DNA of 64,000 nt, from NCBI GenBank assembly GCA_016188575.1, contig JACPHN010000039.1, positions 1-64,000 on the forward strand, in the 5' to 3' direction. Below are positions 8,318 to 59,256 of this stretch, one piece after another; position 1 is the stretch's first letter, and each line of letters begins with the position of its first letter. The notes under the pieces are model-generated. The model had not been told where the DNA came from. It saw nothing but the letters and a program-made list of their open reading frames with translations, and did no database searches. The translations under genes were made by a program, and so were the position numbers. Source of the DNA: Candidatus Schekmanbacteria bacterium. GTDB taxonomy: Bacteria > CSSED10-310 > JACPHN01.

Positions 8318-11300
8318 TCAGGGGCAAAACGCTCTGATCATGCTCTCCGGCGCGACGACGCCCTGCGCAGCCAGAGCGGCGCGCACGCCCGCGATGGTCT
8401 GCTCGCCCGCCGCGCCTCCGGCGATTTCCGCCCACCGCCAGCGCGCGATCCAGGCGATCAACATCAGATCCTCCTCGCAAGCGCGCTCGTCGGCGCGCCG
8501 CAGCAAGCGCCGGGCTGCTTCCAGGTCGCCTGCGAGCGCGCTCATGCGCGCCGCGATCAAATCCGCGGTCGCCTTGAACAGGCTCCCACGGCGCCGGCGC
8601 AAAGTGCGGACCGCGGCGCGCGCCGCCGCACGAGCCCGGCGGTGCGCCGGTCCCATTGCCGCTGCCGTGGCGCCACGTACCCAGTGGGCCAGCGCCGCGT
8701 CGAGCGGCGAGACTTCCAGCATCAGCGACCGCCTGATCAGCGGCCAGTTAGTTTCAAGCATCCCCCAGGCCTCCGCGACCCTCCCCTGGTACAGTCTCAC
8801 CTGGACCCGCGACAGCAGGTAGTACCACCGGTCAAGTCCCATCGCCGGGAGCTCCGGGTGATCCTCCGACCAGGCCGCCCACGCTTGATCCACCGCCCGC
8901 AACGCCTCTTCGGGTGCGTCGCGCATCATCTGGGCGGTGGGAATGTCGAGCATCTCGATGATCCACTGCTGCCAGCGATCACCCCGCGCCCGCGCCTTGG
9001 CCGCCGCCGGTCCGGAGCGCGCACTGAGCTCGAGCAGGCGACCCCGGAACATCATCAGCATGGCGACGAGACTCTCGGCGAGGAACCCCTCGAAGCTGAA
9101 CGCGCCTCCCGACCGCTCGACCATGGCCATGACGTCCTCCGCAGCGCGCATGGCGCGGCTCCATTCCCCCGCGCTGAGGTGTCGATCGATGTCGCCCACT
9201 CCCACCATGATCTGGAGCTTTCCGGGGTCCTGGTGCGCGAGCAGGCGCTGGGCATCGCCGTGGAGCCGACCTGCCCACCGCTGCGCGAGCACCCCGGGAA
9301 CCGCCGCCACGACCGAATAGAGATAGGCGGTCGCGCGACAAACGCGCGAGGGCTCACCGGTCGCCAACGAATACCAGCAGCCCTGTGACTGCACCGCGAT
9401 ACATGCGAGGTGGTCGGTGAGAAATAGGGGCACGGTGGCGGTCAAGGCGATGTCGGCCCGCAGCAGATCCTCCCCGGTAGCCGCCGCGATCGGGCGCTGG
9501 GGTGTCCGCCCTTGCCAGCGGTAGCACCGCCAGAAGAAGCGCATGGTGAGCCGGATCGCATGCCATCGGGAGGAGGGAAAGGACACCCCGAAATCCGCGA
9601 GAATCGGCCTGAGGAGCGAGAGGCCGGTGCGGATGCGACCAGCGCGCAAATACTGCTCGCCGGCACTCGCCCGCAGCCTGACCGCCGCCAGGCCCTCCGC
9701 GTGCGCCGCCGCCGCCAGCAAGACGTCAGCCGCCCCGGCCGCACATCCCGCATCGATCAGGCAAGCGGCCTGCTGCTCGCGGAGCTGCACCTGAGCCGCG
9801 GCATCGCCAGCGGCGGTCCAGCGTACTGCGACGCCCAGAAACTCCGCCGCGCGCTCGAAAGCGAGCGCCTCGCGCGCCCGGTACGCGGCGCGCAGCGCCG
9901 CCGGCAGGGCGATGGCGCCAAGTCCCGCGGCGTCGCCGTGGACTGCAAGGTTCTCCGCATCGTCCAGCTCCGCGGCGACGATGGCGTGCACGATGGCGCG
10001 GTGCAGTGCGACGCGATCCTCCGCCGAGAGTGCGTTCGTGACTTCGTGGCGCATCCGATCGTGAAATGGCTCGAGCTGTTCGCGGCCACCACTTCCCGAA
10101 ACGCGCAGCAGATGCCGGGCGCGAAGCTGCGTCAGGAGGCCGCTGTTGACCTCGGCGCCGAGTGCTCCAGAGGCCAGAGCGCGACCCATGGGGCGGCCAA
10201 AGACCGAGACGATTTTCAGCAGTCGCGCCGCGTGAGCATCTAATTGGGCGGTCCGCCTGCGCACGATCTGGCGCAGCCCGGAGTCCGAAGTTTCGACCGG
10301 GAAGGCGTGAGGTGGCCCAGGTGACGCGCTCGCAGCCTCGCCGATGAGCTCTGCGAGAAGCAGCGGATCGCCATCCGCTTCGCGCGCAATCGGCGTGAGC
10401 GCGTCACCCTGGGCGGCGCGCGGGCCGCCACACGACCGCACCAGGGCACTCGCTTCCGCATCGGTGAACCGCTCTACCGAAAGCGACACCGCGTGGACGC
10501 CCGCGGCTCCGGGACTGCGCAGTGCCCGCAGGAGCCGATCCAGGCTCGGGGTCTGCTCCACGGCCGCGGAGCGAAACGCCAGGAGCACCATCAGGCGGCG
10601 CGCCAGCGGCGGAGCGAGCAGCTCCTCGAGGAGCCAGGTGCTGTCCTCGTCGCCCCACTGAAGATCGTCGAGCACCAGGAGCACCGCATTGCATCCGAGG
10701 AGCTGCGACACCAGGCCGCGCCACGCCCGCGCCGCCGCTAGTCGATCCTCGAGCCCACCGCCGTGCCAGGCACGGACCTCGTCTGAATCCACCGCCTGTT
10801 CTCCGCCGGCGTGACAGTGCGCCCCTTCATCCCTCTGCCCGCAATCGCGGGGCGGTGAGGTGGCGGGTCTTCGTGATGCGCTTTCCGCACAGCTCGCAGT
10901 CGCACCGGCGGTGGATTCAGACTCGCCGGCGCCGGCCGCCTCGCCCGCCGCGCGCGGCCGCAGCACGGGGAAAAGGCGCTGCAGAACCTTTTCAACGGTG
11001 ACGCCGCGGAGGCTCTCGTCCCGCTCGAGCCGTTCGGAAAGCTCGTCGATGATGGCGTCGAGCGCCTTGAACGGGATGCGCTCGGACTCGAAGCAGCGCG
11101 AGCGAAACGCCATGATCTCGGGCGGGATCGAGCTCAGCCAGTGCTCGATGAGGCGGGTTTTCCCGAACCCGGCCGCTCCTTGCAGGGTTACCGCCACGGT
11201 GCCGCCCTGGATGGCCACAGCGAGGGCGTCGTTCAGCTCCCGAAGCTGCTCGTCACGCCCCACGAACGCGGTCCGGGAGCCGTGCCGGAGCGCTTCTGGC

Positions 11301-12361
11301 GCACGTATCGGCCGCTCGCCCGCAAGCGCTTCGCGAATTTGTGCACCTCCCGGCCGCCGCTCCGGGTTCCTGTCAAGCAGGCGGCGACAGAGCTCGGCGA
11401 GGTGGTCGCCGCACTCGGGGCGAAGCTGCGCAGGGCTCGGCGCGGGGCGCGCAAGCTTCTGAGCGAGGACCTCGTGGGAATCACCGAGGAATGGGCGGCA
11501 ACCAGCCAGGGCTTCGAACAGCATCGTGCCAAACGCGTACCAATCGCTCGCCGGCGAGGCGCCGCGGCTGTCGAGCTGCTCGGGCGCCATGTATGCCGGC
11601 GTGCCGCCCCGGGAGGCGGCGGCGCGATCGCCGCCAGCGTCGAGAGCGGTGGCGACTCCGAAATCGAGCACGACGACGCGGCCGGCCTTGGTGACCAGCA
11701 CATTCGCCGGTTTGAGATCGCAGTGTGCCACGCCACGGCGGTGCAGCGCTTCAATCGCCTCGACAAGCTGGAGGCTGACAGCAGTCAGGCGGGCGGTGTC
11801 GGGGGGCGGCAGCGCGGCCGCCTCGCTCTCGCTGCTGGCGATGCTGGCGGTGGCAGCGCGCGCCGCGGCTGTCAGTGTCTGCCGCAGCGTTTCCGCAGAC
11901 CGCCATGCCGGAGACTCGGCCGTGGGGTCGCCGCAAGCAGGGGACGTCCTGTTCTGGTCCACGGCGGCAGCGGCCGCGGACGGCAAGGTCGTCGCTCCGA
12001 ACCCCATCGCCGCCGGGGTCGGTGACGGCTCGGTGTCGTCCGCGGCTGGCCGGGGCGCCTGATAGCAGACGTAGTCCCGAAAAGAGATGCCATCCACCAG
12101 CTCCATGGTAAAGAACCAGCACGGATCCGACGCAAACAGCTCGTGAAGCGTCACGAGGTTGACGTGCACGATTCCTGCCAGCATGCGGAACTCGCGTTTG
12201 AGGTCCACGAGCGCCTGCGGGGTCGCGCGAAAAAGCGCCTTGAGCGCGACGAGCTGATCGCGCTCCCGGTCATGGGCTGCGTAGACGATGCCAAAGCCGC
12301 CCCGCCCCAGACAGCGCTGTATCACAAAACGGTCATCGATGGACGCGCTGACGACGTTCAT
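8318..12361 (-). CDS. Eukaryote-like Ser/Thr kinase with AAA-type ATPase and TPR-like region
   Basis: 1347 residues. Residues 10-330 form a protein kinase domain: glycine loop GRGGFGIVY at 19-27, lysine K41, catalytic HCDLKPAN at 213-220 and DFG at 233-235. An Ala/Pro-rich insert of about 80 residues separates the hinge from the catalytic loop. Residues about 360-800 are a STAND/AAA ATPase with Walker A GAAGFGKT near 395 and Walker B LLVLDDLQW near 560. The remaining 500 residues are alpha-helical and TPR-like. This architecture is known from PknK-type regulators and many myxobacterial kinases. The gene starts 19 bases after gspM and is probably the last gene of the T2SS operon. Residues about 480-527 are encoded by a MITE-like repeat inserted between Walker A and Walker B without breaking the frame. 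Confidence 0.85.
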   Translation of the reverse strand: MNVVSASIDDRFVIQRCLGRGGFGIVYAAHDRERDQLVALKALFRATPQALVDLKREFRMLAGIVHVNLVTLHELFASDPCWFFTMELVDGISFRDYVCYQAPRPAADDTEPSPTPAAMGFGATTLPSAAAAAVDQNRTSPACGDPTAESPAWRSAETLRQTLTAAARAATASIASSESEAAALPPPDTARLTAVSLQLVEAIEALHRRGVAHCDLKPANVLVTKAGRVVVLDFGVATALDAGGDRAAASRGGTPAYMAPEQLDSRGASPASDWYAFGTMLFEALAGCRPFLGDSHEVLAQKLARPAPSPAQLRPECGDHLAELCRRLLDRNPERRPGGAQIREALAGERPIRAPEALRHGSRTAFVGRDEQLRELNDALAVAIQGGTVAVTLQGAAGFGKTRLIEHWLSSIPPEIMAFRSRCFESERIPFKALDAIIDELSERLERDESLRGVTVEKVLQRLFPVLRPRAAGEAAGAGESESTAGATASCAESASRRPATSPPRDCGQRDEGAHCHAGGEQAVDSDEVRAWHGGGLEDRLAAARAWRGLVSQLLGCNAVLLVLDDLQWGDEDSTWLLEELLAPPLARRLMVLLAFRSAAVEQTPSLDRLLRALRSPGAAGVHAVSLSVERFTDAEASALVRSCGGPRAAQGDALTPIAREADGDPLLLAELIGEAASASPGPPHAFPVETSDSGLRQIVRRRTAQLDAHAARLLKIVSVFGRPMGRALASGALGAEVNSGLLTQLRARHLLRVSGSGGREQLEPFHDRMRHEVTNALSAEDRVALHRAIVHAIVAAELDDAENLAVHGDAAGLGAIALPAALRAAYRAREALAFERAAEFLGVAVRWTAAGDAAAQVQLREQQAACLIDAGCAAGAADVLLAAAAHAEGLAAVRLRASAGEQYLRAGRIRTGLSLLRPILADFGVSFPSSRWHAIRLTMRFFWRCYRWQGRTPQRPIAAATGEDLLRADIALTATVPLFLTDHLACIAVQSQGCWYSLATGEPSRVCRATAYLYSVVAAVPGVLAQRWAGRLHGDAQRLLAHQDPGKLQIMVGVGDIDRHLSAGEWSRAMRAAEDVMAMVERSGGAFSFEGFLAESLVAMLMMFRGRLLELSARSGPAAAKARARGDRWQQWIIEMLDIPTAQMMRDAPEEALRAVDQAWAAWSEDHPELPAMGLDRWYYLLSRVQVRLYQGRVAEAWGMLETNWPLIRRSLMLEVSPLDAALAHWVRGATAAAMGPAHRRARAAARAAVRTLRRRRGSLFKATADLIAARMSALAGDLEAARRLLRRADERACEEDLMLIAWIARWRWAEIAGGAAGEQTIAGVRAALAAQGVVAPESMIRAFCP
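10781..10922. mobile_element. MITE-like element with perfect 16-bp inverted repeats, inside a coding sequence
   Basis: The ends are GTCTGAATCCACCGCC (10781-10796) and its exact reverse complement (10907-10922). The 142-bp body also holds a CG-rich hairpin around GCCCGCAATCGCGGGGC. A TC dinucleotide abuts both outer edges and may be a target duplication; 142 plus 2 bases is 144, which keeps the host frame. The interior aligns with the intergenic copies at 17579-17710 and 58881-58979. No transposase is encoded, so it would have been moved in trans. Confidence 0.7.
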
Positions 12362-12380: not shown

Positions 12381-12884
12381 CTAGCGCGACAGCATGAGCT
12401 GGGCGTCGATGGCGAGCGGCTGGTCAGCCCGCCGGCGGATCCGCGCGCTGGTCACGCCAATTCGTTTCTCCTCTTGCAACGTGTGGAGCATGAGCACGAG
12501 CTCGCGGTACCCCAGGCGCTCGACGGCGAGCTCGACCTTTTCCGCGGTATTCCGATCCCCTTCGCGGCCGATCGGCCGCAAGGTCACGACACGGTCGGCG
12601 CCGGGGACGGTGCGGGTGACCTGTTCGACCTGCGCGAGCAGCGAGGTGCTCTCCCCCGAGGCCGCGCCGTTGCTTCGCAAGACGCCAAGTTGGCTGCTAA
12701 GCTGCCGGGCCTCAGCAAGCTCGACGGCCTTGCGGTAAACCCGCTCCCGGGCGCGTTGATAGCGCGTCCAGACGCCGCCGCCGCCCATCAGTATCAGGAT
12801 GACCAGACCCAGGGCCAGCGCGACCCGACTCCGGCGCGGCGTCGCCGCCCACGCGTCACGGAGCGCTTCCAGACGCTTCTTCAT
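12381..12884 (-). CDS. gspM: Type II secretion system protein M
   Basis: 167 residues: a short basic N-terminus, one transmembrane helix at about 20-38 (VALALGLVILILMGGGGVW), a coiled-coil-prone stretch and a C-terminal ferredoxin-like periplasmic domain with the pattern RLGYRELVLMLHTLQEE. GspM is a bitopic inner-membrane subunit that contacts GspL and GspC in the assembly platform. The length and position at the end of a GHIJKLM gene order support the call. Its ATG overlaps the gspL stop by four bases (12881-12884), indicating translational coupling. The protein is weakly conserved, so the call rests partly on synteny. Confidence 0.85.
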   Translation of the reverse strand: MKKRLEALRDAWAATPRRSRVALALGLVILILMGGGGVWTRYQRARERVYRKAVELAEARQLSSQLGVLRSNGAASGESTSLLAQVEQVTRTVPGADRVVTLRPIGREGDRNTAEKVELAVERLGYRELVLMLHTLQEEKRIGVTSARIRRRADQPLAIDAQLMLSR

Positions 12885-14353
12885 GGTCCCTGACCTCCCC
12901 CGTCCTTGAGTCGCACGCGAAAGACGACCGAGCCGTCACGCGGATTGGTATCAGCATTTTCGAGCTGGGGAGCGCCGAGCTCGGGATGGCGTTTGGCTTC
13001 GTCGAGGAGGCCGTCGACATCGGCGTAAGACGGGCTCCAGCCGGACAGGACGATTCCGCCGGCCTGGATCTCGAGCTCGTCGAGTCGTACCTTGGGGCTC
13101 TTCGCAAACGCCCTGGTCACGGCGCTGACCACGCTCAGCACGTCCTTGCGGGCCGCGGTGCTCGCCGTCGCGCTACCCCCGGTGATCTCGTCGCGCATCG
13201 CGCGCAGTCGACGGAGCTCGCCGCCGGCGGCTCCGGCCCCCAGGAATGGCCGCGCGAGCGCCGTGATTTCGCGTTGCAAGCGATCGTACTGCCCTTGTTC
13301 CGCGGCAAACCGGCCGGCGACACTGATCGTCGCGGCCAGGAATAGCGCTGCGACGATTCCGAGGCCGCGGAGGCTCGCTTGCCGCCTGATGGCTGGCGCG
13401 GCGCTGGCTGCAAACCAGCCGTCGGGGACGAGACAGGCGCCAAGCACCGCAGCACACCCGGGCGCCTCGGCGGGAGGTATCGCCGGGCCCTTGCGCATCT
13501 CGAAGGAGCGCACCGGCATGTCGAGGCGGCGGTGAAGCCACGCCGCAAGTCCAGTCCCGGCGGCGCCGCTGCCGGTAAGCACCAGCTCCCAGAGGCCGCG
13601 CCGGCTCACCCCGCCGGCAGCCGCATCCATGGACAGGCGCAACTGCTCCTCGAACGCGCTCAAGGCGGCAACGCCGCCCTCCGGTGAGCGCTCGAGGAGC
13701 GCCTCGGCAAGAGGGCACGGCAGCGGCAAGGCGCGGGCCAGCAGTGGCGTGTCCTGTTCGCACAGCATCCAGGCGACGTGCGCAGCGCCGACGTCGATGA
13801 CACCCCAGCGCGCTGATGCTGGCGGATCCCATGTCGCCACGGCCTGCCGCGCCGCGAGCACGTCTGGAATGTGAGCGGTGCGGCCCGTGTTCTTGTCGGC
13901 CAGGGCCTGCGGAGGCGTGACGACCGCCGCCGCGGGCGCCGCCCAGGCAATCACGTCGCGTAGCGCGCCGCTGCCCACTTTTCGGCCGCGAACCGCGGCG
14001 AAGCAAGCCGGCTCCAGGTCAGGTGCGAGCTGACCCGTCAGCTCATTCTCGACGAGACGCGCCAGAATCTCGGGCTTGGAGGCCGGTAGGGTGACGTGGC
14101 GAACGCCGCAGCGGGCGGCGGACACGAGCATTGCGATGCCGGCGATTTCGTCTCGCCGGCCGATGACCCCTGCAACCGCGGCCGGTAAGGCGGATAGCGC
14201 CTCCGCCGGCGACGGCGCCGCGGTCGCGAATGGAATGGTGCCGCGTCGCACCCCTTCCAGGTACCTCCGGCCGCGGCGGGCTACCGCCCAGCGAATCTCG
14301 GCGGGTCCAACGTCAACCGCTACGGTCACCTTGCTCAACGAGCCTGCCTCCAT
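12881..14353 (-). CDS. gspL: Type II secretion system protein L
   Basis: 490 residues. The N-terminal two thirds have an actin-like cytoplasmic fold (VAVDVGPAEIRWAVARRG at the start, LTGSGAAGTGLAAWLHR later), followed by one membrane helix at about 340-360 (GLGIVAALFLAATISVAG) and a periplasmic domain resembling PilN/GspL C-termini. GspL anchors the GspE ATPase to the inner membrane and pairs with GspM. The ATG at 14353 overlaps gspK by 19 bases. A TTG at 14338, overlapping the gspK stop as TTGA, is an equally plausible start and would give a protein five residues shorter. No gspE, gspF or gspD lies in the window, so the operon is only part of the system. Confidence 0.85.
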   Translation of the reverse strand: MEAGSLSKVTVAVDVGPAEIRWAVARRGRRYLEGVRRGTIPFATAAPSPAEALSALPAAVAGVIGRRDEIAGIAMLVSAARCGVRHVTLPASKPEILARLVENELTGQLAPDLEPACFAAVRGRKVGSGALRDVIAWAAPAAAVVTPPQALADKNTGRTAHIPDVLAARQAVATWDPPASARWGVIDVGAAHVAWMLCEQDTPLLARALPLPCPLAEALLERSPEGGVAALSAFEEQLRLSMDAAAGGVSRRGLWELVLTGSGAAGTGLAAWLHRRLDMPVRSFEMRKGPAIPPAEAPGCAAVLGACLVPDGWFAASAAPAIRRQASLRGLGIVAALFLAATISVAGRFAAEQGQYDRLQREITALARPFLGAGAAGGELRRLRAMRDEITGGSATASTAARKDVLSVVSAVTRAFAKSPKVRLDELEIQAGGIVLSGWSPSYADVDGLLDEAKRHPELGAPQLENADTNPRDGSVVFRVRLKDGGGQGP

Positions 14354-15288
14354 CTCGCCGCCACCAGGCGCACGGTTCCGGACCGCGTGAACCAGGCTTC
14401 GAGCCCGGCCGCGACCTCCTCGGTGCGTGCAACCACTGACAGGTGAAACGCCGTGGACTGTACGGTCAGGAGGTTTGCGATGGAGCCGCGCAGCTCGGGC
14501 GTCGTCGACACCCGGTCAAAGACCGCGCTCACCGCTGCGAACGGCTGCTTGTCGCGCTCCTGGAGTAGCGCCTCGACCCACGCTTCCGGCATCGCCTCGC
14601 TCAGGCACAGCAGCACCTCGCGCGGCGCCGTGTTCACGTTGATGCGCTCGTTGCCGCGAAGCGTAAGCCATTTTTCCGCCATGGCGCCTAGACCCGGGGC
14701 GCTTTCCGCGGCGCTGCCTTCGCCGCCGGGAGCCTCCAGGCCATACCGGGGACGCAACAGCGGGAGCTCGCCGAGAAACTCCAGAGCCGCTCCGGATGCG
14801 CCTCCTCCCGAGGTCCCGTAGCGCCATCGTTCCAGGAGCGCAGCGTTGAGAGCGCGGACCTCGGTCGGCCTGGCACCGGCGAGCGTCAACAGGCGGTCGA
14901 GTCTGCCCACGGCGACCGGCTCGAGCTCGCCGGCGCCACCGAATACCGACCCCAGCGGAAATGATCGTTCCGCGTCGCGAATCTCCGCGACGACGTCCAG
15001 GCCGCCGCCGAGGTCGGCGGCGATGCCTTTGGCCCAGCTTTCAGAAAGTGCGTCGAGCTTCGCGTCGTCCTCTTGCAAGACCGCGCGCGCCACCTCGATC
15101 GCGGAACGCGCCGCGGAACGTACTGCGACGCGATCTGCCTGCCGCGCCGCCACGCCGGCGGCGGTGCGGACCGTCTGGTGAAAGGCGAGAACGGCCGAAG
15201 TCAATACCGCCGTCACGATTACCACGATCAACAGCACATAGCCGCGGTCACCGCGGCGAGCAAGGGGCAAACGAGGCAGGGCAGTCAT
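14335..15288 (-). CDS. gspK: Type II secretion system minor pseudopilin GspK
   Basis: 317 residues, the usual size for GspK, the largest minor pseudopilin. The prepilin-like signal is RRGDRGYVLLIVVIVTAVL, with the glycine before the hydrophobic stretch at about residue 16. The mature part contains NVNTAPREVLLCL, the hallmark SAM-like segment of GspK that binds calcium in studied homologues. Unlike G to J it lacks Glu at mature position 5, as is typical for GspK. It caps the GspI-GspJ tip complex of the pseudopilus. The start overlaps gspJ by four bases. Confidence 0.9.
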   Translation of the reverse strand: MTALPRLPLARRGDRGYVLLIVVIVTAVLTSAVLAFHQTVRTAAGVAARQADRVAVRSAARSAIEVARAVLQEDDAKLDALSESWAKGIAADLGGGLDVVAEIRDAERSFPLGSVFGGAGELEPVAVGRLDRLLTLAGARPTEVRALNAALLERWRYGTSGGGASGAALEFLGELPLLRPRYGLEAPGGEGSAAESAPGLGAMAEKWLTLRGNERINVNTAPREVLLCLSEAMPEAWVEALLQERDKQPFAAVSAVFDRVSTTPELRGSIANLLTVQSTAFHLSVVARTEEVAAGLEAWFTRSGTVRLVAARWRQAR

Positions 15289-15968
15289 CGGCGGGCTCCC
15301 CGCGGATTGGGCGCCAGCACCCGAAAGGTGCGCTCCGCCTCATCGGCGTGACCATCACCGCGAGCAACTCGGATGGACACCCGGATCGCTTCAGGCAGCG
15401 CCCCCGCCAAATCGGCATCCCAGCTCGGCAGCCAGCCAGTGCCATCGAAGTAGGCGATCGCTACTTGTTCTACCCCCGCCAGGAGCTCGTGGGACGGTAC
15501 GTTCCAGGGCTCGTCAGGCTCCGCGGGGTTCGCTTCGCCGTCCCGGGCGATGGCGACTTCTTCTCGCAAGCTTCCGGTCTGGGAGTCCAGGTAGAGCACG
15601 AACGCCACGAGCGGTGGCTCTCCGGGCCGACCACTCCAGCTCGTGCCCGCCAACAACGGCTCGCTGCCGCCGGTGGCGCCCGAGCCGACCAGCGCGCGGC
15701 TGCGATACGAAGACAGGAAGAGCCCCTCGAGGCGGTCCTCGAGGTGGTTCATCACGGTGAGGACGTCCTGGTTGCGCGCGAGGCGAGGCGTCAGGTTGGC
15801 GGTCACGGCAGTCACGGACCAGAACAGGGCAAAAGCCGCGGTCAAGACGAGCGAACCGATGAAGATCGCGAGGAGCAGCTCGACGAGGGTGAAACCTGCG
15901 GAGCGGGCGGGCGCGGTAGGGTGCGGCGCTACCGGGGGCAGCGCGGCGATGCCGGCGACTGGGGTCAA
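15285..15968 (-). CDS. gspJ: Type II secretion system minor pseudopilin GspJ
   Basis: 227 residues with a long 23-residue leader and a clear prepilin cleavage/methylation site SAGFTLVELLLAIFIGSLV, including Glu5. The remaining fold is beta-rich with a pseudopilin disulfide-free body. GspJ forms the tip trimer with GspI and GspK. The gene overlaps gspI and gspK by four bases each. An ATG nearer to the cleavage site is not available, so the long leader is probably real. Confidence 0.88.
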   Translation of the reverse strand: MTPVAGIAALPPVAPHPTAPARSAGFTLVELLLAIFIGSLVLTAAFALFWSVTAVTANLTPRLARNQDVLTVMNHLEDRLEGLFLSSYRSRALVGSGATGGSEPLLAGTSWSGRPGEPPLVAFVLYLDSQTGSLREEVAIARDGEANPAEPDEPWNVPSHELLAGVEQVAIAYFDGTGWLPSWDADLAGALPEAIRVSIRVARGDGHADEAERTFRVLAPNPRGARR

Positions 15969-16435
15969 CTCGGGGGTCCTTCCTCGCGCATCGTCCAGCG
16001 GCGCACGACGAGCTGGTCAGCGAAGGGCGCGGCCCAGTCGGTTCGGCTGAGTTTCTCGGGGTCGTCAGCCCAGCGCACCGTGGCTTCGACCTGATAGGTG
16101 CCGGCGTATGGCCCGGGGTTGTGGGTCATGTTCCAGATGACCCGACCGTCACTCGTCGCGCCGTTCGCCTTCCACTCCCGGTCACCGATGTCCCAACCAT
16201 GCAGCACGGTTTCGGCAACGGCCGCCGCGCGACTGCGGGCCGCGGCGCGCTCCCACAGCAACATGTCGGCGCCGAGCAGGCGCACCGCGCCGGCGACGAC
16301 CAGCGAGAGAATAACGACGGCCAGCATCGCCTCGATCAGCGTGCTGCCCTGTTCCGATCGCCGGACCGGCCGCGACAGTCCGCGTTTGCCGCGCGAAATC
16401 CCGGGCGCTCCGTGAACGCCGAGCGCCGGGTTCAT
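15965..16435 (-). CDS. gspI: Type II secretion system minor pseudopilin GspI
   Basis: 156 residues from the ATG at 16435, which overlaps the gspH stop as ATGA; a longer open frame upstream is rejected for that reason. The prepilin signal is EQGSTLIEAMLAVVILSLVV with Glu5 present. The mature domain ends in the typical tail where QLVVRRWTM precedes the stop. GspI nucleates the pseudopilus tip with GspJ and GspK. The leader of about 30 residues is longer than usual. Confidence 0.87.
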   Translation of the reverse strand: MNPALGVHGAPGISRGKRGLSRPVRRSEQGSTLIEAMLAVVILSLVVAGAVRLLGADMLLWERAAARSRAAAVAETVLHGWDIGDREWKANGATSDGRVIWNMTHNPGPYAGTYQVEATVRWADDPEKLSRTDWAAPFADQLVVRRWTMREEGPPS

Positions 16436-17028
16436 CCTCGCCCTCCGTCTGCAGTAGCGGGGTCGCGGATGACCCGCGCCGCCGGCCAGGTCAGCAACCA
16501 TCGGCTGCGCGAGCTCCCGGTCTGCCGCTCCAGCGTCATGCCATCGGCCAGGCCATGGGGGCCCAGCACCGGACCCGCGGCGGCGCCGCTCCCATCCGCG
16601 CCGGAAGGACGGCCGTCGCGGCCCAAGATTCGCCAACCGGCCGGCAGGCGCACCGGATCCGGAGACCCGGCCGCCGCCGCGGCGTTGGCGTCGGCCGCCA
16701 TGAAGCGGAGGATCTCTCCTCCGGGCTCGACCACCACGCGCAGCATCGCGTCATTGTCGGCGCACCAGGCGGCGGCCGAGGAAAACCAGCGTTCGACTTC
16801 CTGCGCCTCGGCAACGGGTCCTCCGAGTGACCGCCTGCCGAACGCGGGCAGCGCCAGGCCCATCATGATCGCGGTCAGCGCGATCACGACCGCCACCTCA
16901 AGCAACGTGAAGCCGCGCCGGCCCACGGCTTCGGCAGCGTCGCCGCCGCAGCACCTGGCCGACCGTGGATCAGAGCATTTCCCCGAATCCGCCGACGAGC
17001 TCCTCATCGGACATGGCCCTCGCTCCAC
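16432..17028 (-). CDS. gspH: Type II secretion system minor pseudopilin GspH
   Basis: 198 residues with leader, cleavage site RRGFTLLEVAVVIALTAIMM (Glu5 present) and a beta-sheet body. GspH links the tip complex to the GspG fibre. The start at 17028 lies 18 bases after gspG. The N-terminal 36 residues before the cleavage site are unusually long and carry three cysteines; an internal start (MRSSSADSG, seven codons later) is possible. Overlap with gspI is four bases. Confidence 0.85.
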   Translation of the reverse strand: MERGPCPMRSSSADSGKCSDPRSARCCGGDAAEAVGRRGFTLLEVAVVIALTAIMMGLALPAFGRRSLGGPVAEAQEVERWFSSAAAWCADNDAMLRVVVEPGGEILRFMAADANAAAAAGSPDPVRLPAGWRILGRDGRPSGADGSGAAAGPVLGPHGLADGMTLERQTGSSRSRWLLTWPAARVIRDPATADGGRG

Positions 17029-17046
17029 ACGCCGCGTTCGCTCGCG

Positions 17047-17511
17047 TCACTGGGCGTCCCACACGCTGATGTCCTGGTCAATACCATCCCCGCCGTCCTG
17101 CCCGTCGGCACCGAGTGACACCAGGTCGAACGGGCGGCCGTCAGGCGCGGGTGACACGTAGATAAAAGGAGCCCCCCACGGATCCACCGGGATTTGCCCG
17201 CCCTCCAGGTATCCTCCCTCGCGCCACGCCGCCGGACGCGGCTCTAGCTCCGGAGGCTGGACGAGCGCCCTGAGCCCTTGCGCGGTTGTCGGGTAACGGC
17301 TGTTGTCCAGCCGGTAGAGCTTCACGGTGGAAGCGAGGCTCGCGAGCTGCATCCGCACCTTGGCGAGCCGCGCATCGTCCGCGCGATCCACGATACGAGG
17401 CACCACCAGGCCGGCCAGAATGCCGAGAATCACGACCACCACCATGATCTCAATGAGCGTAAAGCCGCGCTCGCACGCGGCGGCACGGGCAGAACATCGG
17501 GCTTTCAGCAT
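17047..17511 (-). CDS. gspG: Type II secretion system major pseudopilin GspG
   Basis: 154 residues. The prepilin signal CERGFTLIEIMVVVVILGIL has Glu5, followed by the long N-terminal helix and the GspG-specific body: RYPTTAQGLRALVQPP, YLEGGQIPVDPWGAPF, and a C-terminal calcium-site loop GADGQDGGDGIDQDI. This is the main subunit of the pseudopilus that pushes folded proteins through the outer membrane secretin. It is the first gene of the GHIJKLM block, has a GAGAGGA ribosome-binding site and a sigma-70-like promoter just upstream. Confidence 0.94.
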   Translation of the reverse strand: MLKARCSARAAACERGFTLIEIMVVVVILGILAGLVVPRIVDRADDARLAKVRMQLASLASTVKLYRLDNSRYPTTAQGLRALVQPPELEPRPAAWREGGYLEGGQIPVDPWGAPFIYVSPAPDGRPFDLVSLGADGQDGGDGIDQDISVWDAQ

Positions 17512-17578: not shown

Positions 17579-17710
17579 GGCGAACCTGAATCCACCGCCG
17601 GCTCGACTGCAAGCTGCGCGGAAGGCGCATCACGAAGACGCCCTGCCTCACCTTCCCCCGCACGCGGGGGGAGGGATGGAGAGGGCGCGGGTTGCGTGGC
17701 GGGAGAGGCG
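17579..17710 (+). repeat. Dispersed repeat, intergenic copy B
   Basis: Starts CGAACCTGAATCCACCGCCGG, continues through GCTGCGCGGAAGGCGCATCACGAAGAC-like sequence (17611-17637) and a hairpin CCTTCCCCCGCACGCGGGGGG, and ends near GGCGGGAGAGG. It aligns along about 120 bases with the element inside the kinase gene, but the far inverted repeat is missing, so this copy looks truncated. It lies between the divergent gspG and asparagine synthase genes. Confidence 0.65.
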
Positions 17711-26374: not shown

Positions 26375-26619
26375 GTCTGGTTTCCATGTCGTGCGTGGCC
26401 GCCTGCCCGAAAGGGTTGCCGCGGCGCGGCTCACCCGTGTCGCGTGTCGGGTTGCAACTATACCATCTGCGAGGCGCTTCTGCCAAGGAGCAAGATCGGG
26501 CCTTTGCGCGCGCGTCTGGACCCCTACGCCGGTTCGACTCCACGCTGCGCGGCGAGCGCATTCGGCCGAATGTCCGGTTTCGTCCAGTACACTTCTTCAC
26601 GCCGCAGGTTCGGCGCGGA

Positions 26620-26641
26620 GGGGCGCGATTCATCGCGCCCC
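26620..26641. repeat. REP-like palindrome
   Basis: GGGGCGCGAT-TC-ATCGCGCCCC, 10-bp perfect arms and a two-base loop, followed by CAATGCC. The same core and the CAATGCC tail recur at 54384-54412. Confidence 0.7.
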
Positions 26642-26690
26642 AATGCCGGGCCGGGAATCATCGGGCCGAGAATGATCCGCCCGGATAACC

Positions 26691-54340: not shown

Positions 54341-54383
54341 TGTCGTCTGATCCTCGCGCGGCTACGCTCTTCGCGTTACCGTA

Positions 54384-54405
54384 GCGGCGCGATTCATCGC
54401 GCCGC
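54384..54405. repeat. REP-like palindrome
   Basis: GCGGCGCGAT-TC-ATCGCGCCGC: 10-bp arms, two-base loop, followed by AATGCC. The core matches the palindrome at 26,620-26,641. Confidence 0.7.
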
Positions 54406-54547
54406 AATGCCCGTGCAGGCGCGACAATGTGCAGCACGCGTTGCAGGGCAGGGTTTCAGACCGGCTGACGAATGGATGAGGCATCGTTGCGCAACGAGTG
54501 CGCGAGGCGCGGGGGGAGGGAGGGTGAACACATACCAATTTCCAATC

Positions 54548-58754: not shown

Positions 58755-59256
58755 CTCACTGCGAGCCGCGCGTATTCGTGGATCATCTTACCGGGTTCGC
58801 GGGCGAAACCCCAGGCGGTGACTTCGACCCGACAGCGCCCCCTCCGTCCCTCGCCCCGCCGGCGAGGGAAGGTGACGCCGGGTCCCTCCCCCCGCTTGCC
58901 GGGGGAGGTAAGGTTGGGGGGTATTCGTGATGCGCCTTCCGCGCAGCTTGCAGGCGAAGAAGCGGGGGATTCAGGGTCGGTGGGTGAGCGGGCAGGCTCG
59001 GCACGGGAAGGTGGCGCACCGGTGTGGTGGCGCAAACTGCCACTACAACTCAACACGTAACCGCCCCGGCGTCCCGCGGCGCTCTCCATTCCTCGCCCTA
59101 CGCAAACCGGCACGCTTCCCGCCGCCGCCCAAAGCACTTCCAGCAGACGTGACGAGCCTCGTCTGCTTGCGGCGGCGCGTGTCGGATCCTGGCATGGCCC
59201 CTGCAACACCACCGGGCAGCGGAATCACTCCGCGACAACAGAAAAGGTGAGCTGGC
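58755..59256. other. Intergenic with dispersed repeat, 500 bases
   Basis: Contains repeat copy C and a second hairpin (TCCCTCGCC / GGCGAGGGA at 58847-58869). The last 200 bases lead into the next gene; a ribosome-binding site AAAGGTGAG is visible at 59243-59251. No gene is supported. Confidence 0.5.
58881..58979 (-). repeat. Dispersed repeat, intergenic copy C
   Basis: On the minus strand: CGACCCTGAATCCCCCGC, then GCTGCGCGGAAGGCGCATCA and a hairpin in CCTCCCCCGGCAAGCGGGGG. It matches copy B and the kinase-gene element over the central 60 bases. The outer inverted repeat found in the kinase copy is partly eroded. Confidence 0.6.

Follow-up and report, generated by a model that had tools for sequence, protein, structure and literature searches.

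A mobile repeat inside a kinase-ATPase gene

The window, by which we mean the whole 64,000-nucleotide stretch analysed, contains a gene for a Ser/Thr protein kinase in which a kinase domain (PF00069) and an AAA_16 ATPase domain (PF13191) are followed by a long C-terminal region (Table 1). A copy of a MITE lies inside this gene, antisense to it, between the segments encoding Walker A and Walker B. The termini of the copy, set by family-wide alignment, are TCTGAATCCACCGCC...GGCGGTGGATTCAGA. The perfect 16-bp inverted ends reported in the initial annotation are present (10781–10796 and 10907–10922); the outermost G/C of this 16-mer is, however, a base of the target duplication, and the element measures 140 bp, not 142 bp. 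The target duplication, given there as 2 bp, has to be corrected to the 4-bp motif CTCG on both sides. The net insertion of 144 bases, a multiple of three, holds as 140 bp plus 4 bp, and so does the addition of about 48 residues between the Walker motifs. The 48 added codons begin exactly at a codon boundary, with codon 481, and the flanks joined without the insert would read ...AGAGEVRAWH... The reading frame of the host gene stays open across the MITE, with strong coding signal on either side and no other lesion within its 1347 codons. The 140-nt strand of the MITE folds better than every shuffled sequence (z −3.1), as expected from its palindromic build.

The kinase-domain hinge of the same protein contains a low-complexity insert rich in Ala, Pro and Ser (residues ~105–190, window ~11790–12050). 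An old, decayed MITE copy was considered for this linker and rejected, as the family profile gave no match there even at E 100. Directly upstream of the kinase gene, the genes on the minus strand at 12381–17511 resemble a type II secretion cluster, with GspG/H/I/J/K/L/M-like translations.

Table 1 Features of the kinase-gene locus and family copies in the window and in genes elsewhere in the genome. Positions without a contig handle refer to the window.
Feature	Position	Strand	Remarks
Host gene: 1347-aa Ser/Thr kinase with AAA_16 ATPase domain and long C-terminal region	8318..12361	-	insert = residues 481–528
MITE copy, 140 bp	10782..10921	+	consensus orientation, antisense to kinase gene; profile match 120.5 bits, E 2e-36 in window; boundaries from terminal inverted repeats and target-site duplication
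Left terminal inverted repeat	10782..10799	+	outer 15 bp without mismatch; 95% over 19 bp counting duplication base 10781
Right terminal inverted repeat	10904..10921	-	inverted-repeat match to left end
Target-site duplication CTCG, left copy	10778..10781	.	4 bp, family rule
Target-site duplication CTCG, right copy	10922..10925	.	4 bp, family rule
Second family copy, end-truncated, intergenic	17585..17688	-	90.2 bits
Third family copy, rearranged/partial, intergenic	58805..58975	+	73.7 and 25.9 bits
Second kinase-AAA_16-TPR protein, MITE after Walker B	C173:36796-36935		in frame, 140 bp
Biotin-protein ligase, MITE after catalytic domain	C76:5104-5243		duplication GCAA; in frame, 140 bp
Kinases, probable diverged in-frame copies	C90, C194, C225		two of three in kinase-domain hinge
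PD-(D/E)XK nuclease, probable diverged in-frame copy	C160		
Polyketide synthase, probable diverged in-frame copy	C60		weak flank score
Other probable diverged in-frame copies	C162, C120, C92, C4		C120 with weak flank score

The distance from Walker A to Walker B is 177 residues in the host kinase. It is 131–134 residues in nearly all distant homologues of the last 998 residues of the protein that align through the region, with three longer cases of 138–157. The expectation that homologous kinases lack the segment was borne out: about 44 residues are missing from them at the position of the insert. No close orthologue of the host kinase was found in the collections searched, so the empty site is visible in distant homologues only (25–36% identity). 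The extra residues belong to a poorly conserved loop that connects an FPVL motif with the conserved helix following it. In a predicted structure of residues 356–680, the AAA core is confident, with 10-residue mean pLDDT values mostly of 83–97, and a fold search returned AAA+/STAND-type ATPases as best matches. The insert (model residues 126–173) has pLDDT values of ~35–56, and model residues 115–167, which cover most of it, are below 50. It is thus modelled as a probably disordered, floppy loop.

The repeat family in the source genome

The source genome comprises 9.2 Mb in 275 contigs with 66% GC. A search of it gave 41 matches at E ≤ 1e-3 from ~450 candidates, the best of them outside the window at E 2.7e-44. 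A family profile was then made from full-length copies and run contig by contig against 2.35 Mb of the 9.2 Mb. It detected 166 matches at E < 1e-3 (146 at E < 1e-5), 62 of them full length. Scaling from these 2.35 Mb, whose contigs were picked partly for containing family matches, suggests about 650 copies genome-wide, fragments counted. Of the 62 full-length copies, 20 share the most frequent length, 140 bp. Exact 4-bp flanking duplications occur at 21 of the 62 full-length copies against 0.38 expected; flanking repeats of 2 and 3 bp are at chance level, and those of 5–9 bp were not seen. Duplication of 4 bp is therefore characteristic of the whole family, including the copy in the kinase gene. 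The genome-wide copies and target duplications envisaged in the initial annotation thus do exist.

The family consensus has the ends CCTGAATCCACCGCC, and four of its six reading frames are open. The family displays the features of MITEs, namely terminal inverted repeats, target-site duplication, no transposase and many dispersed copies. No copy of it turned up in 60 further genomes, seven of them from the same phylum. The window also contains two copies of another short palindromic repeat (GGCGCGATTCATCGCGCC; 26616–26647 and 54380–54411; 91% identity), apparently unrelated to the MITE family.

Ends common to the MITE and IS1380-family remnants

IS1380 was examined as a source because the MITE ends look like those of ISEcp1, a member of the IS1380 family. 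The inverted repeats of ISEcp1 are IRR ACGTGGAATTTAGG and IRL CCTAGATTCTACGT, and its duplications are of 4–5 bp (PMC7864471). The source genome contains three remnants of IS1380-family transposases (DDE_Tnp_1_4, PF13701). The similarity among them stops at GGTGGATTTAGG, which the MITE end GGTGGATTCAGG matches. It breaks off at GGCCGGTGGATTTAGG in contig C174 and at GGCCAGTGAATTTAGG in contig C143, and from the alignments we take these break points as the right end of the insertion sequence. The last 14 bases of the insertion sequence, compared for the right end only, agree with the MITE consensus end at 12 positions in C174, 10 in C143 and 11 in C269. The MITE also has the duplication length (4–5 bp) and the CCT...AGG ends of the IS1380 type. 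Since its ends match the right end of IS1380-family remnants in the same genome, we classify it as an IS1380-type MITE, and infer that it was mobilised in trans by a transposase of this family.

An intact IS1380 transposase was not found in the assembly, where all three copies are truncated or stop-bearing. Searching the loci of the insertion sequences with the family profile gave no match and hence no internal similarity to the MITE, and no convincing complete autonomous element between two family ends was found in the 2.35 Mb. A 2-kb segment present at two loci with 83% identity (L199, 58–2045, and L200, reverse) carries a metalloprotease-like reading frame and the end of an IS1380-family transposase; it is possibly the result of one-ended transposition or an old duplication.

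Copies inside other genes

Genes were called in the 2.35 Mb with a simple codon-model gene finder, which assigned 78.5% of the sequence as coding. The full-length copies comprise 44 that are intergenic, 12 that overlap a predicted gene end, three with a weakly supported flank, and three inside genes, defined by strong coding signal on both flanks. Random placement would put ~49 of the 62 in genes. All three in-gene copies are exactly 140 bp long and in frame. Translations of the gene pairs flanking MITEs look on inspection like distinct proteins, and the idea that such pairs are halves of one split gene was rejected.

We extended the search genome-wide with the consensus translated in two antisense frames, and checked the flanks of the matches. 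It yielded about nine more probable in-frame copies in genes, more diverged and without exact duplications. The initial annotation placed the copies elsewhere in intergenic DNA; this applies to most of them, but a further two full-length copies and some nine diverged ones are apparently in frame within genes. All 12 in-gene copies are antisense to the family consensus; an orientation bias was not upheld, as nine of the 12 came from the antisense-frame queries. Two different kinases have a diverged copy at the corresponding site, in the hinge that connects the kinase lobes (L212, C194:28075-28214; L233, C225:6398-6537). Two adjacent polyketide synthase genes each contain an in-frame family-like segment (L210, C60:19802-20068; L232, C60:14690-14829), in one of which copies apparently overlap or are nested.

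Kinase genes make up 4.3% of the coding DNA and two of the three hosts in the 2.35-Mb sample, a suggestive excess noticed after the fact. Of the 12 hosts overall they are five, an excess due in part to a search that favours long open frames. Some 100 kinase-motif genes are estimated genome-wide from 26 in 2.35 Mb; their median length is ~1190 residues and several encode kinase-AAA_16-TPR proteins.

Tolerated passenger or domesticated segment

We propose, with a probability of about 0.8, that the 48 residues are a passenger, contributed by a tolerated, frame-neutral insertion of a trans-mobilised IS1380-type MITE. An IS1380-family transposase acting in trans would have put the 140-bp non-autonomous element into the kinase gene at CTCG and, in doing so, duplicated this 4-bp target. 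Because 140 + 4 is divisible by three and four of the six consensus frames are open, a gene hit by a fresh canonical copy stays in frame in four of six combinations of frame and strand; the kinase frame was kept in this way, with a gain of 48 residues. These sit between Walker A and Walker B in an AAA_16 loop of poor conservation, a place where a disordered loop may be tolerated. The MITE appears to have entered other genes of the genome in the same manner. The insert is presumably tolerated and the kinase presumably still functional; the added residues may possibly influence regulation of the ATPase.

The initial annotation described the element as domesticated, and selection could indeed have retained the 48 residues as a regulator of the ATPase or kinase, for instance by serving as phospho-acceptor or flexible gate. 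The frame is unbroken at 16% divergence from the consensus, and the MITE occurs after Walker B in a paralogous kinase-ATPase and in the kinase hinge of two other kinases; the share of kinases among the hosts points the same way, apart from the part of it that stems from the search. We found no sign of selection at the protein level, however, and consider domestication unlikely. The codon log-odds score of the insert is −10, like that of non-coding DNA, against +29 and +25 in the adjoining 200 codons. Changes from the consensus at codon positions 1, 2 and 3 number 66, 78 and 66 in the 12 in-gene copies, without third-position excess, in a test that is weak because divergence from the consensus includes changes predating insertion. 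The insertion sites differ among the paralogues, so that their position implies no common function, and the insert itself is predicted to be disordered. Nor was selection for open frames retained as an explanation, since the openness of the 140-bp copies exceeds the independent-column expectation slightly at most.

Slightly less probable still is that the insertion has disabled, or is disabling, a protein that is not needed, and is neutral and in frame by chance. One third of random lengths preserve the frame anyway, the host is one of the ~100 kinase-motif genes and may be redundant, and the copy retains perfect ends. Against this, 1347 codons without a further lesion and a coding signal unbroken on both sides of the MITE speak for an intact gene. 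Clear out-of-frame, gene-splitting copies are absent among the 62 full-length ones, which suggests that gene-destroying insertions were removed, although a transposase preference for intergenic DNA would account for part of the depletion in genes. A chance resemblance, or a GC-rich linker of low complexity mimicking an element, can be dismissed almost entirely: a GC-rich central hairpin is common to many GC-rich places, but the matches are full length with E values down to 2.7e-44, the family-wide excess of 4-bp duplications already refutes it, and the segment is absent from homologues. From the even codon positions and the non-coding score of the insert together, we infer that insertions are passively tolerated and harmful ones purged, in preference to domestication.

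Small mobile repeats that have invaded proteins in frame are known mainly from Rickettsia. To our knowledge, the source transposon of the Rickettsia palindromic elements is not established. The family described here combines a target duplication and fixed length with a plausible source insertion sequence and about a dozen in-gene cases, which makes the question whether such inserts are tolerated or useful directly testable. We speculate, as a doubtful extension, that an IS1380-derived, frame-neutral MITE outside the Rickettsiales repeatedly adds loops to proteins and is preferentially retained in large kinase-ATPase regulators. If this were true, frame-neutral MITEs would be a source of loop innovation in proteins.

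Comparison with known systems

The family has a close resemblance to other bacterial MITEs in its 140-bp length, lack of transposase, terminal inverted repeats matching a resident insertion sequence, target duplication, and hundreds of mostly intergenic copies. It differs from them in that its apparent parent belongs to the IS1380 family, which is unmentioned in a 2024 review of prokaryotic MITEs (PMC10969869), and in that its canonical length plus duplication is divisible by three. With the IS1380 family and ISEcp1 it has in common the terminal repeats (GGTGGATTTAGG in the resident insertion sequence, ACGTGGAATTTAGG in ISEcp1) and the 4–5 bp duplications (PMC7864471); unlike them, the MITE lacks a transposase, and the profile search showed no internal similarity between it and the insertion sequence.

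In-frame insertion of small repeats into proteins is established for the Rickettsia palindromic elements (PMC10969869) and occasional for other MITEs (PMC5896051). QMITE1 and QMITE2 of Coxiella burnetii overlap open reading frames or lie in frame inside some of them, as the present family does, but have other lengths and direct repeats, and the named in-frame cases in mid-ORF are in hypothetical proteins (PMC5896051). The Rickettsia palindromic elements are palindromic repeats of ~150 bp that lie in frame in many unrelated protein genes (Ogata et al. 2000, 2002, via PMC10969869). They are retained as extra protein segments, and nearly half of the R. conorii copies are in genes (PMC10969869). 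The present family likewise forms in-frame inserts in unrelated genes, encoding kinase-ATPases, a biotin ligase, a PD-(D/E)XK nuclease and polyketide synthases. It differs in its clear 4-bp duplication, its fitting source family of insertion sequences, the small share of its copies in genes, and its host genome of 9.2 Mb and 66% GC; the likeness is one of behaviour. By membership the family belongs to the MITEs, among which it is new and of the IS1380 type; in the way it works it resembles the Rickettsia palindromic elements.
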